Positions 39,498-46,473 of a stretch of 48,121 nt of DNA are shown in pieces (the first letter of the stretch is position 1; each line of letters begins with the position of its first letter). Below the pieces are notes generated by a model, which did no database searches, was not told where the DNA came from, and saw only the letters and a list, made by a program, of their open reading frames with translations. This stretch comes from Nitrospirota bacterium (GTDB lineage: Bacteria > Nitrospirota > Thermodesulfovibrionia > Thermodesulfovibrionales > BMS3Bbin05). Both the position numbers and the translations under genes were made by a program. The stretch spans positions 2,165,789 to 2,213,909 of the forward strand of contig CP070669.1 of the NCBI GenBank assembly GCA_020351835.1, in the 5' to 3' direction.

Positions 39498-40007
39498 CTA
39501 AAAATTCCTGTTATTGAAACAGTCTATAGCGAACACGTCTCCATCGACCCTTGTCCCTGCAATAGCCGTAGCTATGGCAACAAAACATGGAGGGTCGGGC
39601 GGTGTTGCCGTGAAATCCTGCGCAATCACGCTCGTTGGGTCGAACGGAACTGTGGGAGTATCAGGCATACGGCGATTTTCCAGTATACGGAATGTGAACT
39701 GGGACTCTCCCGATGGCCTGAAACCCGGCAATACGTCCTCGATCCCGTTGTCTGATGAATCTTGCGGTGTTGCTTTGTAATCTATGTTATCAGTGGCCGA
39801 TGCAGTTATTGAAGCATAGAACCCGTTCTCTGAATAATACTGTTCCTGAAGCAGTCGCAGGGACTCAAGGTTGCCGTAGCCCTCTGTCCTGGCGGCTTTC
39901 CTCGTTACACCCACATATGAAGTGACAGCAATACCTGAAAGTATCCCAATGATACATATAACAATGAGAAGCTCGATAAGCGTAAATCCCTTTTGATCTC
40001 TTATCAC
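39498..40007 (-). CDS. Type IV pilin-like protein (minor pilin or pseudopilin)
   Basis: This 169-residue protein has a short leader (MIRDQKG) and a class III signal: cleavage G7/F8 before FTLIELLIVICIIGILSG, with Glu at mature position 5. The hydrophobic N-terminal helix is followed by a polar globular part with a C-terminal Cys pair (PPCFVAI ... AIDCFNN), probably a disulfide. It is downstream of a larger pilin and of a hairpin, so it may be expressed less. The region 39395-39497 after it holds no gene. Confidence 0.9.
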   Translation of the reverse strand: MIRDQKGFTLIELLIVICIIGILSGIAVTSYVGVTRKAARTEGYGNLESLRLLQEQYYSENGFYASITASATDNIDYKATPQDSSDNGIEDVLPGFRPSGESQFTFRILENRRMPDTPTVPFDPTSVIAQDFTATPPDPPCFVAIATAIAGTRVDGDVFAIDCFNNRNF

Positions 40008-40078: not shown

Positions 40079-40726
40079 TTACTCAGCTGTTACGATCTTG
40101 GTCGTCAACTGCTCCGAACCTGCGGTATCGCTACCACCAGGACCGTTGGAGAACGATGAGACCGTTATACTGCTTCCGACCTGGCTAGGATTGAAGTTAA
40201 CCCTGCATGCGTCAGCCGGTAGGGCAGGCGCTGCTGTAAGCCTTGCGTACAGATAGCGAGGGGGCGCACAAGCATCCATTCCGGACCATGGAGAAAGTTC
40301 GGCAACTGGATTTGACACTCCACAGGTGGCTGCAGCATTAACACCCAATCCCTGGGTCCTTGCACCGACATAGCACATTGCTGCTGCCCTGGCCGGGTTT
40401 GTGCCATCAAGCGCAAATAACGCAGAGTTCGTGAAATCACTTCCTGTGATCTGGCCGTCCCAGTCTGTATCGACCTCCCTTAACGATGCTCCGAGGGCTG
40501 TGGAGACGATACCCTTGATAGCGGAGTTGAGCCAGTGCTGAAGGTCCGACTCAGATGATGCTGCCGCCTTAATAACGTTTGATTTCCTCGCTTTTTCCTG
40601 TGCACCGATGTAAGCAGGAATAGCGATTGCCGCAAGAATACCGATGATCGCGACAACGATGAGAAGCTCTATCAGGGTAAAGCCCCTGTCTGATCTTCCC
40701 TGCATTTTGTTGATAGTTCTGAACAT
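40079..40726 (-). CDS. Type IV pilin-like protein (major pilin candidate)
   Basis: The ATG at 40726 is chosen because AAGGAGG ends 7 bases upstream; the frame continues to a GTG at 40744 that lies before this site. The protein has 215 residues with leader ...SDRG, mature FTLIELLIVVAIIGILAAIAIPAY and Glu5. The globular part has an EF-hand-like loop (D86, D88, D90, G91, I93, D97 in VDTDWDGQITGSDF) and four later Cys, enough for two disulfides. Strong translation signals and the hairpin after it suggest high expression. GspG-type pseudopilin is the alternative. Confidence 0.9.
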   Translation of the reverse strand: MFRTINKMQGRSDRGFTLIELLIVVAIIGILAAIAIPAYIGAQEKARKSNVIKAAASSESDLQHWLNSAIKGIVSTALGASLREVDTDWDGQITGSDFTNSALFALDGTNPARAAAMCYVGARTQGLGVNAAATCGVSNPVAELSPWSGMDACAPPRYLYARLTAAPALPADACRVNFNPSQVGSSITVSSFSNGPGGSDTAGSEQLTTKIVTAE

Positions 40727-40748
40727 TATGCTTCCTCCTTTCACAGAT

Positions 40749-41111: not shown

Positions 41112-42569
41112 ATGAAAACATCATTTAAGATCATAAACATTGCGGTCCTCATCACCTGGATCATCATGCTCTCTATAATGCTGTTCAGAGAGCACGCTGG
41201 GATCACTTTAGGTCCCGGAGTGGATGAAGGTGCCGGCATCGGTAAATACACCAGCTGGTACGATATTTACAAGGCAGATGCAAAAATAGGCTATGCAAGC
41301 ACATCTGTTAACCAGGCAGGCAACGAGATCGTAATTGATCACATCAGGGCTGTCATGGTTGAAAAGGAAGGCAAGGATGTCCTGCTCCAGTTGAAATTAA
41401 GGTACCTCAATGATATTAACTTCTCACCCAGGTCGTTCATGTACTCGCTCATCCTCGATGACAAGCCCCAGAGAGTGATAAAAGGTGAGATCGACGGGAA
41501 GAAGGCCCTCTTTTTTCTCGAGTCCGACAAGGGGACAGAGGTTAGAACAATAGACATAACTGACAAAGAACCTTTTCTCCCGCTAACGATCCTGCCGGCG
41601 ATCCTGAAGAGCAACCCTTCAAAGGGCTCTGTATTTGTGGCACCCGTTCTGAACATCGAGAACATGGCTGTTGACAGGGTAAGGATAGTATTAGAGGATA
41701 TTGTTCCTTTCAAGTTGAATATAAATATCGAGAGCCTCTTCAAGTTCATGGTAGGAAGCCAGATCATCTGGTGCGATAAGAACGGCAATATAGTCAAAGA
41801 GTCACTTCCTAACGGTACAACATTATACTCTCAGAGCGAAATAATGGCAAAGGACATGACCGGGAGGCCACTGGTAGATTTTACTTCGATCCCACTGATA
41901 GGATCATCAAGGATACTTACCGACGTCGAAAAACTGAAAGTTCTGAAATTAAAATTAAACGGTTATAAGATTCCTGAAGACATTCTCGGTAATACGAATG
42001 TTACTGTTGAAAAGGATGTGCTGACAATAAGCAAGTACCTCGAGGATGAAATAAAAGCAGATAGTTACAAACTCCCCTTACGCTCTCAACATCTGGACCA
42101 ATATACACAAAGTGACGAATGGATAGACCTGGACGCTAAGCTAAAGAGGACAGGAAGGGCCTTCGCCGGGGCCTATGATAACGACTCATACCGGCTTACT
42201 CATTACCTTCGTGGATATGTTCATAATATCATCGGTACGAGGCTCTTTTTTACACCATCAAATTCATCAGAAGTGTTAAATATACGTATGGGAGACCACC
42301 TTGAAAAGACCGTGCTTGCCACTTCTTATGCAAGGGCCGCTGGAATGCCGGCACGGATGGTTGGAGGCCTGGTTTACAGGAACGGGTTCTTCTATTTTCA
42401 TTCATGGGTAGAGATATGGTTCAATAAATGGGTCCCTATGGACCCTTCGCTGGTACAGTTCCCTGCTGATGTATCACATATACCTCTTGCTGCAGGGAGT
42501 GTCGGGGAAATAATATCAATTATCGAAATTCTTGATCAGATAGAGATCGAGGTACTGGAGGCTGAATGA
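41112..42569 (+). CDS. Transglutaminase-like fold protein lacking catalytic Cys
   Basis: This 485-residue protein has one N-terminal TM or signal anchor (about 7-25) and an extracytoplasmic body. The C-terminal part (about 365-450) has the transglutaminase core: GDHLEKTVLATSYARAAGMPARMVGG, FHSWVEIWFNKWVPMDPS. Family members have Cys where H396 stands (usually GDCxEh). The His (H430) and Asp (D444) are kept. It is therefore probably a non-catalytic, ligand- or peptide-binding domain. The last 4 bases overlap the ABC ATPase gene, which links it to that transporter. Confidence 0.82.
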   Translation: MKTSFKIINIAVLITWIIMLSIMLFREHAGITLGPGVDEGAGIGKYTSWYDIYKADAKIGYASTSVNQAGNEIVIDHIRAVMVEKEGKDVLLQLKLRYLNDINFSPRSFMYSLILDDKPQRVIKGEIDGKKALFFLESDKGTEVRTIDITDKEPFLPLTILPAILKSNPSKGSVFVAPVLNIENMAVDRVRIVLEDIVPFKLNINIESLFKFMVGSQIIWCDKNGNIVKESLPNGTTLYSQSEIMAKDMTGRPLVDFTSIPLIGSSRILTDVEKLKVLKLKLNGYKIPEDILGNTNVTVEKDVLTISKYLEDEIKADSYKLPLRSQHLDQYTQSDEWIDLDAKLKRTGRAFAGAYDNDSYRLTHYLRGYVHNIIGTRLFFTPSNSSEVLNIRMGDHLEKTVLATSYARAAGMPARMVGGLVYRNGFFYFHSWVEIWFNKWVPMDPSLVQFPADVSHIPLAAGSVGEIISIIEILDQIEIEVLEAE

Positions 42570-43315
42570 TTGAGATCCGAAATTGCACAAAAAGATATGG
42601 CGAACTGCTGGCCGTCAACGACCTTGGTCTGGATGTAGGAGTGGGAGAGATATTCGGTTTTCTCGGACCCAACGGCGCAGGAAAATCCACGACTATAAAG
42701 ATGATGGTAGGCCTTATAAGACCTGATTCAGGGTCTATCAGGATAGCTGGCAATGACGTGACTGGATCATCAGATAAGGCAAAACAGCTGATAGCATACA
42801 TACCTGAAAAAGGCTACATATTCGAGAAGATGACCGCCTGGGAATACCTTAAGTTTATAGGGGGTCTCTACGGTATGGATGAGGGCACTTTTATGGATAA
42901 TACCGAAAAGTATCTCAGGACCTTCGGCCTGCTTGACTGGAAGAACGAGATGATAGCTAACTTTTCTCACGGTATGAAGCAGAGATTACTGCTTACCTCT
43001 TCCTTTATGCGCTCTCCAAAGGTGCTTATACTTGATGAGCCTCATAACGGGCTTGATCCAAAGGGAGTAAAGGTACTTAGAGATCTCCTTTACGAATCAA
43101 GGGATAAAGGCATGACTATCGTTCTTTGCACTCATATAATAGCCATAGCAGAGCAGATGTGTGATAATATCGCGATCATTAATAAGGGACATATCATAGC
43201 TCATGGCTCCAGTGATGAAATAAAACATTATGCAAAGTCCGATGATAAGAACCTTGAGGACGTATTCCTGAGGTTGACGTCTGATTATCAGGAGCAGGGC
43301 AGAGCAATATCATGA
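42566..43315 (+). CDS. ABC transporter ATP-binding protein
   Basis: This 249-residue NBD has Walker A GPNGAGKST near 37-45, the Q-loop region AYIPEKGYIF, the signature FSHGMKQRL, Walker B VLILDEP and the H-loop His in CTHIIAIAEQ. It looks catalytically intact and is of the ABC-2 exporter type (CcmA/DrrA-like). ATGA overlaps on both sides couple it to the transglutaminase-like protein and to the permease. The transported substrate is unknown. Confidence 0.93.
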   Translation: MIEIRNCTKRYGELLAVNDLGLDVGVGEIFGFLGPNGAGKSTTIKMMVGLIRPDSGSIRIAGNDVTGSSDKAKQLIAYIPEKGYIFEKMTAWEYLKFIGGLYGMDEGTFMDNTEKYLRTFGLLDWKNEMIANFSHGMKQRLLLTSSFMRSPKVLILDEPHNGLDPKGVKVLRDLLYESRDKGMTIVLCTHIIAIAEQMCDNIAIINKGHIIAHGSSDEIKHYAKSDDKNLEDVFLRLTSDYQEQGRAIS

Positions 43316-45048
43316 AAGACCTCCTGGTCCTTATCTCACCGATATTCTGGTCAATAAAGAATGATTTGCTCAAGGCCGATCGGACCTTTTACAGAAGGTT
43401 CATTATGTTATCCGGATCAAGCGTTCTATTTATTCTGCTAATTACCAGTTTCCTTAATAAAAGCATGATAAGGCTGCAGTCGATCGCACCTGACCTTTTC
43501 GGGATAATACTTATCAAGGGTTATTCCTTCATGTTCCTTATAATATTCGGGGTCCAGGTATTGAACGGATTTGTTTTCGCCCTGAACTCCTTCTATCAGT
43601 CCAGAGAACTTGAGGTCATAATGGTCTCCCCTGTAGATAAAGACTCGCTATTCTTTGCACGGTTGCTGGACACACAGATAAAGGCCCTCTGGATGCTCGC
43701 TGTATTCGGACTTCCGCTTCTCGTAGCGGCAGGGATCACGCTGAATGCAGGACCTGTTTACTACCCGTTCTCTATATTGATATTCATTGTTTTTTCTTCG
43801 ATCCCGGTCAATATAGGTATATTGATAGCCATAGTACTGTCAAAATTTCTTCACACCAGACGATTAAAAAGGATATTGCTTACCATGGGCGTCCTAACCA
43901 TTGCCGTGATAACGACCCTTTTCAGGATATATCGTCCGGAGCGCTTTATTAATCCGGAGCTCTTCGCTAATGTTACCCTCTTTATCAACGAGCTCAATAC
44001 CGCTTCACATGTTCTTCTGCCGAACAGGTGGCTCGGAGAATCGGTCTTTGGTCTTATCCAGCACAAGGACCCGATCATCTTGGTACATATCATGCTTTTG
44101 ATCACCACATCATATCTAACAGCTATCCTCGCGATGCTGGCATTCAGAAGGTTCCATGAAAAAGGATGGGCCTTACTTCAGGAAGGAGGTTCAGCTTATT
44201 ACAGAGCTCAAACACCGGAACAGAAGCAGCGGCCGATAATTGATCTTGTAACTGCCCTGTTCAATAGATCCATCTCAATATTCTCAGTCAAGCAAAAGAT
44301 GTTCTTTAAAAAGGAGTTGATCTACCAGGTCCGTGATATCAAGAATGTGCACCAACTGCTCATACTCCTGTCACTTGTCATAGTTTATCTGTTCAGCATC
44401 TCTTCTCTGCCCCTTGACTGGGCGGATATAATATATGCTCTTAAACTGAAATACTTCACCGCTTTTTTTAACATAGGACTGATAGCGACGATAATAGCTG
44501 CCCTTTGCACCAGGATCATATATCAATCCGTTTTGAATGATAAAGACTCTTTCTGGTTGATGAGAACTGCTCCGGTCTCACCGTCCCAGTATGTGATGTC
44601 GAAGTATCTGTTCTTCTTCTTGCCTATTTGCATCCTCGGCCTTCTTCTGACAATATTTTCTTTCAGGTTCATCGATATCGACAATGCTGTCATGGTCCTC
44701 GAGATATTCACTGTTATAGTGATCTGTTCTTCATTGACGGCTCTGGCGATCTATACCGGCACTGCAGACATGGTCAAACACATAAGGGAATCCTCAAAAG
44801 ATGAGTTAAAGACCGGAAATATTATATTTATGATCGGTGCAGTGATACTGATAGCCTTGACCCTTACTTTCGAAGCGGTCCCTGTCTTCCTTTATTTTCT
44901 CGCTGAGTCGAAACAGGCATCTTTTGTGGGAAAAACATGGGCAGTTATTCTAGCCTCTTCCACTTTCATAATTCTGATCAATCTGATAACAGCTTGGCTA
45001 TCTTTAAGGTCATCGATAAAAAAGATAGACAGTGTAGAACTAGGCTAG
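43312..45048 (+). CDS. ABC transporter permease (large, exporter type)
   Basis: This 578-residue membrane protein has about 12 hydrophobic segments in two halves separated by a polar region (about 280-330). It is translated in overlap with the ATPase gene and is probably its membrane partner, with two six-helix halves on one chain. MVSPVDKDSLFFARLLDTQIKALW in the first half and MRTAPVSPSQYVMSKYLFFFLP in the second have the same layout, which suggests internal duplication. It resembles putative ABC exporters of unknown cargo. Its end overlaps the convergent small gene by 9 bases. Confidence 0.85.
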   Translation: MKDLLVLISPIFWSIKNDLLKADRTFYRRFIMLSGSSVLFILLITSFLNKSMIRLQSIAPDLFGIILIKGYSFMFLIIFGVQVLNGFVFALNSFYQSRELEVIMVSPVDKDSLFFARLLDTQIKALWMLAVFGLPLLVAAGITLNAGPVYYPFSILIFIVFSSIPVNIGILIAIVLSKFLHTRRLKRILLTMGVLTIAVITTLFRIYRPERFINPELFANVTLFINELNTASHVLLPNRWLGESVFGLIQHKDPIILVHIMLLITTSYLTAILAMLAFRRFHEKGWALLQEGGSAYYRAQTPEQKQRPIIDLVTALFNRSISIFSVKQKMFFKKELIYQVRDIKNVHQLLILLSLVIVYLFSISSLPLDWADIIYALKLKYFTAFFNIGLIATIIAALCTRIIYQSVLNDKDSFWLMRTAPVSPSQYVMSKYLFFFLPICILGLLLTIFSFRFIDIDNAVMVLEIFTVIVICSSLTALAIYTGTADMVKHIRESSKDELKTGNIIFMIGAVILIALTLTFEAVPVFLYFLAESKQASFVGKTWAVILASSTFIILINLITAWLSLRSSIKKIDSVELG

Positions 45049-45480: not shown

Positions 45481-46473
45481 ATGAGCAGGAAGAACATAAT
45501 TATTTGTTTAATATCGGTTTTCTTGATGGTCTTATCTATAACTGCCAGCGCTACACTTAATCTTGAATATAAAGACTATATCATAAAGCCCGGAGATACG
45601 CTCTGGGACATATCGGCAGCAGAATTGAAGGACCCCTTTCTATGGCCAAATATCTGGAAGGAAAATCCTGATATAGAGAATCCTGATCTTATTTACCCGG
45701 ACCAGTTCATTAAGATACCCGTTTATCTTGTTCAGAGACAGATAAAACTTACTCAGCCGGTCGAAGAGGTGGAACCTGTCGATATTGATATCGATAAGGA
45801 CATAACCGAGACCATGCCGGAGATAGAAGATACAACACCCCGCAAGAAGAGGTTCGCAGTTGACCGGTCATTGGTCATGGTAAGCGGCTATATCTCTCCG
45901 GACCTGCCAACCATAGGAAAGATCCTAGGGAACCGCGATAATCGCTTGATACTTGGCAAGGGGGATTCAGCATATGTAGATATCGAGGGGGACCTCTCTG
46001 TCGGCAGAAGGTTCTATACCTTTCGTTATGTACCGGATATTAAACACCCTAAAGGCAATAAGCTGGGATATCTGATAGAGATAACAGGCATAGCTGAGAT
46101 AGTCGGAGAGGAGTCTGGGAATGTGAAGGTAAATATAACGGAATCCTTTCTTGATGTTAATGTTGGAGAGTACCTTCAGGATTACTTCGAAATCGAGCCG
46201 CCAGAAAAAGTCGCATCTCCCAGAATGCCAGAGATCAAGGGTGTGGTCGTAACGTCAAAGGACCTTAAGGACCTTAACGCCGAAGGTGATGTGGTTTACA
46301 TAGACAAGGGAAGTGAGGACGGCGTACTTCTAGGTGATGCGTTCCGCATCGTATCCGAGCAATATCCCAACATAGTGATAGGGGATATCCTCGTCATATT
46401 TACCAAAGAAAAGACATCCACGGCTTACGTAAACTTCTCTAAACAGCCGATAGATAAGGGTGATTATTTCTAA
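45481..46473 (+). CDS. Secreted LysM-domain protein
   Basis: This 330-residue protein has a Sec signal peptide (residues 1-24, hydrophobic ICLISVFLMVLSI, cleavage near ASA) and one N-terminal LysM domain (about 32-80: YIIKPGDTLWDISAAEL, PFLWPNIWKENPDIENPDLIYP, GQ-like QFIKIP). LysM binds peptidoglycan. The C-terminal part (about 125-330) is beta-rich with repeats of the type VDIEGDLSVGRRFYTF and VYIDKGSEDGVLLGDAFRIV, seen in other LysM-bearing envelope proteins. It has its own promoter and a terminator. The exact role is unknown. Confidence 0.9.
   Translation: MSRKNIIICLISVFLMVLSITASATLNLEYKDYIIKPGDTLWDISAAELKDPFLWPNIWKENPDIENPDLIYPDQFIKIPVYLVQRQIKLTQPVEEVEPVDIDIDKDITETMPEIEDTTPRKKRFAVDRSLVMVSGYISPDLPTIGKILGNRDNRLILGKGDSAYVDIEGDLSVGRRFYTFRYVPDIKHPKGNKLGYLIEITGIAEIVGEESGNVKVNITESFLDVNVGEYLQDYFEIEPPEKVASPRMPEIKGVVVTSKDLKDLNAEGDVVYIDKGSEDGVLLGDAFRIVSEQYPNIVIGDILVIFTKEKTSTAYVNFSKQPIDKGDYF

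Follow-up and report, generated by a model that had tools for sequence, protein, structure and literature searches.

What does a transglutaminase-like (TG-like) protein do beside an ABC transporter once its catalytic cysteine has been lost? The question is raised by three overlapping genes in a 2.29 Mb single-contig genome, which lie within the 48,121-nucleotide stretch of DNA analysed here (the window); the named near relatives are Nitrospirota, several of them labelled Thermodesulfovibrionia. The initial annotation had read the first gene as a Cys-less transglutaminase that has become a receptor or regulator for the cargo of an exporter, or that uses a His-based chemistry. Inactive transglutaminase domains are already known from bacteria (PMC12239564, PMC3482391), as is a papain-fold domain with a Cys-to-Tyr replacement in an ABC exporter (PMC8277102). 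For an operon of this TG–ABC–permease kind, or for its Cys-bearing parent module, we found no description in open-access text; the initial annotation had likewise known of no described system with this order. The gene order itself proved to be widespread. Here, we favour, with a probability of about 0.5, the reading that the TG-like protein is a non-catalytic periplasmic subunit that binds substrate for, or gates, the transporter and serves a pilin-linked surface function.

Organization of the locus and predicted structures

The TG-like protein (485 aa) is encoded on the forward strand at 41112..42569, and is identified by its match to Pfam Transglut_core (PF01841; 50.5 bits with a cut-off of 23, E = 2.8e-13, residues 363-445), by alignment and by its predicted model; Transglut_core models were the only ones returned by the Pfam scan. 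The ABC ATPase (249 aa; 42566..43315, forward strand) has intact nucleotide-binding motifs, with Walker A, the signature SHGMKQR, Walker B and the H-loop all present. The permease (578 aa; 43312..45048, forward strand) is a type V-like single chain of about 2 × 6 TM helices, which matches PF16949 ABC_tran_2 with 211 bits (E = 4.6e-62) and is the sole PF16949 permease of the genome. The two overlaps noted initially are both real: the start of each downstream gene overlaps the stop of the one before it in a shared ATGA, at 42566-42569 for TG/ATPase and at 43312-43315 for ATPase/permease. A LysM-domain protein (330 aa; 45481-46473, same strand) follows 432 bp past the permease gene, outside the conserved module.

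The model of the TG-like protein (mean pLDDT 94) consists of a TM helix at aa 2-28, in keeping with the anchored protein first proposed, a beta-barrel-like domain (aa 46-241), a linker and a papain/TG core (aa ~311-461). By Foldseek, the barrel matches EipB/DUF1849 (6ntr; E = 1.6e-6, TM-score 0.53-0.60 by target, about 10% identity), and no DUF1849 match was returned by the Pfam scan. The core matches 3isr (E = 2.8e-6) and, weakly, TglA of S. pyogenes; a sequence search of solved structures gave 3isr (a putative cysteine protease), 6g49 (a weak TG match), one chance-level match and nothing more. In the permease model (pLDDT 83), a single chain forms about twelve long helices; the best fold matches of this model, all weak (best E 4.4e-3), are a mycobacterial efflux pump, NosY, CcmB, KpsM and ABCG transporters, among which CcmB and NosY belong to ABC proteins that are not simple exporters. 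The modelled permease would thus bear a weak resemblance to type V ABC transporters.

The active site is lost in one Nitrospirota clade

The position of the catalytic Cys is codon 396 (42297..42299, forward strand), which reads CAC (His) and shares its alignment column with the Cys of GDCNEH; codons 430 (CAT, His) and 444 (GAC, Asp) retain the other two residues, exactly as the initial annotation had described them. Because the Cys is lost, though His430 and Asp444 are kept, the protein is, as judged from its sequence, a member of the transglutaminase fold family without an intact catalytic triad and very probably not an active enzyme of that family.

In 61 genomes, a search found 11 full-length TG homologues in addition to the window's own, and a scan of one genome per species across 84,980 species gave 80 named loci. 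Of 106 non-redundant TG rows, 86 have the Cys and one (L052) is a fragment that stops short of it. Outside the Nitrospirota clade the Cys is present in 85 of 85 scorable relatives, and every scored row without it falls within a single clade of 20 rows (SH-aLRT 100), where the site is occupied by Tyr, His, Asp, Ser or Gly and, in one member, Cys. This member (L069) has the full GDCNEH; its Cys may be retained or may reflect a reversal from Ser. The window's protein belongs to a subclade of 11 rows (UFBoot/SH-aLRT 100/100), and the other rows of the clade make up a Ser grade that includes L069, with its Cys, and one Gly row (L176 in G213; ORF 688-2166, GEGKES at the site). The same split was recovered independently in a tree of the ATPase and permease, and a test of one origin for all non-Cys rows gave a p-AU of 0.086, by which a single loss is not rejected. 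As the Cys is absent from all 11 rows and present in every scorable relative outside the larger clade, its loss is more than chance. Cys-bearing homologues in the same gene order, which the initial annotation had taken as the mark of an isolated mutation, are indeed abundant, yet the loss is clade-wide and old.

Within the 11-row subclade the site is Tyr in seven rows, His in two, Asp in one and Ser in one, so that His396, whose conservation had been put forward as the check, is not conserved. At this position Tyr is encoded by TAT, His by CAT or CAC, Asp by GAT, Ser by AGC or AGT and Cys by TGC or TGT; most of the clade has TAT, which a single base change separates from TGT and likewise from CAT or GAT. 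A Tyr intermediate thus explains the two-base distance between Cys and His, which had been correctly counted, and a single two-base jump is not needed.

The rest of the active site has changed as well. In 83 Cys rows, Q297 is found in 99%, C396 in 100%, N397 in 93%, E398 in 100% and H399 in 98%; in the 11-row subclade, Q297 is replaced by V or A, C396 by Y, H, D or S, N397 by L or I and H399 by R or K, and position 398 is E or Q. In papain-like C39 peptidases, a Gln that precedes the Cys contributes to the oxyanion hole (PMC8277102), and Q297 may play the corresponding part in the TG-like protein. His430 and Asp444 are kept in 11/11 rows, and the segment from Q449 to H456 is unchanged; of the 485 columns, 67 are invariant in the clade. 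In the same alignment, the eight Ser rows all keep Q297, N397, E398 and H399 (8/8 each). In a further member (L073/L177, G197) the TG ORF is shortened to 345 aa with Asn at the His430 position, possibly a decaying copy or masked sequence. From these replacements, the TG-like protein of the window's subclade is very probably a pseudoenzyme with a non-catalytic role.

The module is widespread and its genes occur together

The order TG–ATPase–permease was found in 67 rows. These come from Deltaproteobacteria (in the wide sense), Binatia, Acidobacteriota, Neomarinimicrobiota and Nitrospirota, and the 4-base overlap often recurs in them. Many homologues adjoin housekeeping genes such as apparent purL and purF. 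In two Cys-less loci the ATPase/permease overlap is broken by an ORF that, by eye, resembles a DUF559/Vsr-like endonuclease (L055:2349-2795; L058:10253-10621).

Among genomes of the order, all 31 with a full-length TG protein also have the permease (31/31), in 16 of them on different contigs; the permease occurs in 37/176 genomes, and the co-occurrence has p=8e-29, uncorrected for shared ancestry. One genome of the same genus (G001) has neither TG protein nor permease, and since this loss takes in the permease too, the module was lost as a unit. The Cys-less TG gene is under purifying selection, with a dN/dS of about 0.17 for L054-L060 (0.120/0.688) and of 0.13-0.14 for Cys pairs. Three genomes (G158, G176 and G186) hold a Cys module and a Cys-less module, and a separate ATPase and permease belong to each. 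Owing to these separate ABC genes, the Cys-less lineage there is a distinct module and not an allele of the only copy, and it is paralogous or horizontally acquired. The receptor or regulator tied to an exporter that was first envisaged is therefore upheld in two respects, the protein being very probably non-catalytic and functionally tied to an ABC transporter, as seen from the 31/31 co-occurrence and the conserved overlap; its part there may be that of a receptor, a regulator or a scaffold.

Association with type IV pilins

A long type IV pilin (family A5; 40079..40744, reverse strand) lies 367 bp upstream of the TG gene in divergent orientation, and is followed by a second, shorter one (family A6; 39498..40007, reverse strand). 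No other gene of the long-pilin kind occurs in the genome. The shorter one is widespread and therefore says little. No promoter signal stood out in the stretch that separates the pilin from the TG gene; pilB is present above cut-off elsewhere in the genome. The pilin pair adjoins the module divergently and upstream in the window and convergently and downstream in L053, L055, L057 and L069, and no pilin was found near the module at the roughly 60 loci outside the clade.

At full strength the long pilin occurs in 13 of 230 genomes of the class, and 12 of these 13 hold the clade's TG protein. Uncorrected for shared ancestry, the association has p=1e-13 by genome, p=3e-8 by genus (9/10 genera) and p=0.012 at the family level. 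The sole class genome with the long pilin and without the clade's TG (G196) consists of about 350 contigs and is 7% contaminated. Loss of the Cys and linkage to the pilin do not always go together: G007 has a Cys-less TG without the long pilin, and L069 has the adjacent pilin pair with an intact Cys.

It may be that the pilins merely hitch-hike with the lineage and that the module has a general envelope role in lipid, glycan or peptide handling, a reading which can be true together with that of a pseudoenzyme. The roughly 60 pilin-free loci, and the many homologues beside apparent purL and purF, would fit it; the two arrangements of the pair and the 12/13 co-occurrence, however, speak against it, and we regard simple hitch-hiking as rather less likely than not.

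Discussion

We propose that the three genes would encode one envelope machine, in which a type V-like ABC transporter works with a dedicated inner-membrane-anchored periplasmic subunit that combines a beta-barrel resembling EipB with a transglutaminase-fold domain. Most lineages have kept the Cys-His-Asp site intact, and their subunit presumably works as a hydrolase or acyltransferase. The window's Nitrospirota clade has lost this site but retains the fold, the pocket wall formed by His and Asp, and the coupling to the transporter. Instead of cleaving a ligand, the pocket would now only bind it, and the subunit would serve the transporter as a receptor for its substrate or as a gate, much as the C39-like domain of HlyB, with its Cys-to-Tyr change, is thought to act (PMC8277102). 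Binding of a ligand in the old pocket we judge an even bet, and the involvement of a pilin or pilin-linked substrate a little short of that. We infer that the transporter exports, that its cargo or client would be connected with this particular type IV pilin pair, and that the pilin itself may be the client.

A rival to the ligand-binding subunit is that the TG core is a structural scaffold only, a folding, assembly or force-transmitting element without a ligand pocket, resembling NosD on NosFY. The loss of the active site with retention of the fold, the similarity of the permease to NosFY and CcmB, and the conserved residues W432, W440, Q449-F-P-A-D453 and H456 of the clade, which may be structural, are all in line with this. 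A pure scaffold, however, need not keep the pocket residues His430 and Asp444, which are invariant when most columns are not, and we think it improbable that scaffolding is the whole role.

Catalysis by other means, with His, Tyr, Asp or Ser as nucleophile or base in place of Cys, could draw on the intact His430 and Asp444, and in the Ser grade, with Q297, N397, E398 and H399 in place, a Ser-His-Asp hydrolase is conceivable. In the window's clade it is very unlikely, as the site varies among four residues and Gln297, N397 and H399 are lost too. The His-based chemistry considered initially fares no better, since the two His rows of the 11 are not sisters in the tree. Hardly more credible is a relaxed or decaying gene on its way out of an operon that works without it, to which the G001 genome and the long branch of the window's protein might point: the ORF is intact in all sampled members except the shortened L073, dN/dS is about 0.17, and in G001 the permease is gone too, the module leaving as a unit. 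That codon 396 reflects a lone mutation or an error of sequencing, an idea with nothing in its favour beyond the codon itself, can be dismissed, as eleven clade genomes are without the Cys and three further active-site losses accompany it.

The non-catalytic subunit that we favour can be compared with several known systems. The first is the C39-like domain of type I secretion systems such as HlyB, in which the Cys is changed to Tyr9 with His83 retained, and to Tyr, Leu or Asn in others, active and inactive versions occurring within the same transporter family (PMC8277102). This domain and the TG-like protein share a papain-like fold, a replaced Cys and a kept catalytic His, and each goes with an ABC transporter, in the former case an exporter; the likeness is one of analogy only, since the C39-like domain is N-terminal and fused to a type IV transporter, whereas the TG-like protein is separate, anchored and equipped with an extra beta-barrel and a type V-like permease. 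The second is the RloB-type protein of the inner membrane, whose periplasmic TG domain is likewise inactive (PMC12239564), but which has seven TM helices, ATP-grasp and retropepsin partners and no ABC transporter, where the TG-like protein has one N-terminal helix in its model. RHS toxin TG domains, which have lost C, H or D and follow a signal peptide or TM helix, have been proposed to bind peptides (PMC3482391); unlike the window's TG, they are fused to RHS repeats and lack a transporter operon.

NosDFY also combines an ABC transporter with a dedicated periplasmic subunit, and the fold of our permease weakly matches NosY. NosD, however, has a different fold, and NosDFY serves copper-site assembly. 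EipB (DUF1849) would share the beta-barrel-like domain, although the solved EipB has no TG domain. Compared by gene linkage, the nearest described arrangement is that of Myxococcus xanthus, where the pilin operon PilA-PilG-PilH-PilI encodes an ABC accessory protein, an ATPase and a permease, and pilus formation reportedly depends on PilG-PilH-PilI (PMC3546991, PMC3724824). There, as at five loci here, a pilin gene is linked to accessory, ATPase and permease genes, but the window's pilins lie on the opposite strand from the module. No match to a PF09822-type accessory protein was found in the window's own genome. A more specific picture, in which a pilin-dedicated ABC machine has a dead TG domain as its periplasmic peptide receptor or gate, the counterpart of the HlyB domain across the membrane and derived from a still-coexisting active module, we hold to be speculative and rather doubtful.

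These findings describe a widespread three-gene envelope module, in which a presumably active TG-fold protein would be joined to a type V-like ABC transporter. The Nitrospirota clade offers a natural series of active sites with Cys, Ser, Gly, Tyr, His or Asp, and some of its genomes have both versions, so that the function of the subunit that depends on catalysis can be tested directly. With this module, type IV pili also gain a candidate ABC partner in bacteria other than myxobacteria.
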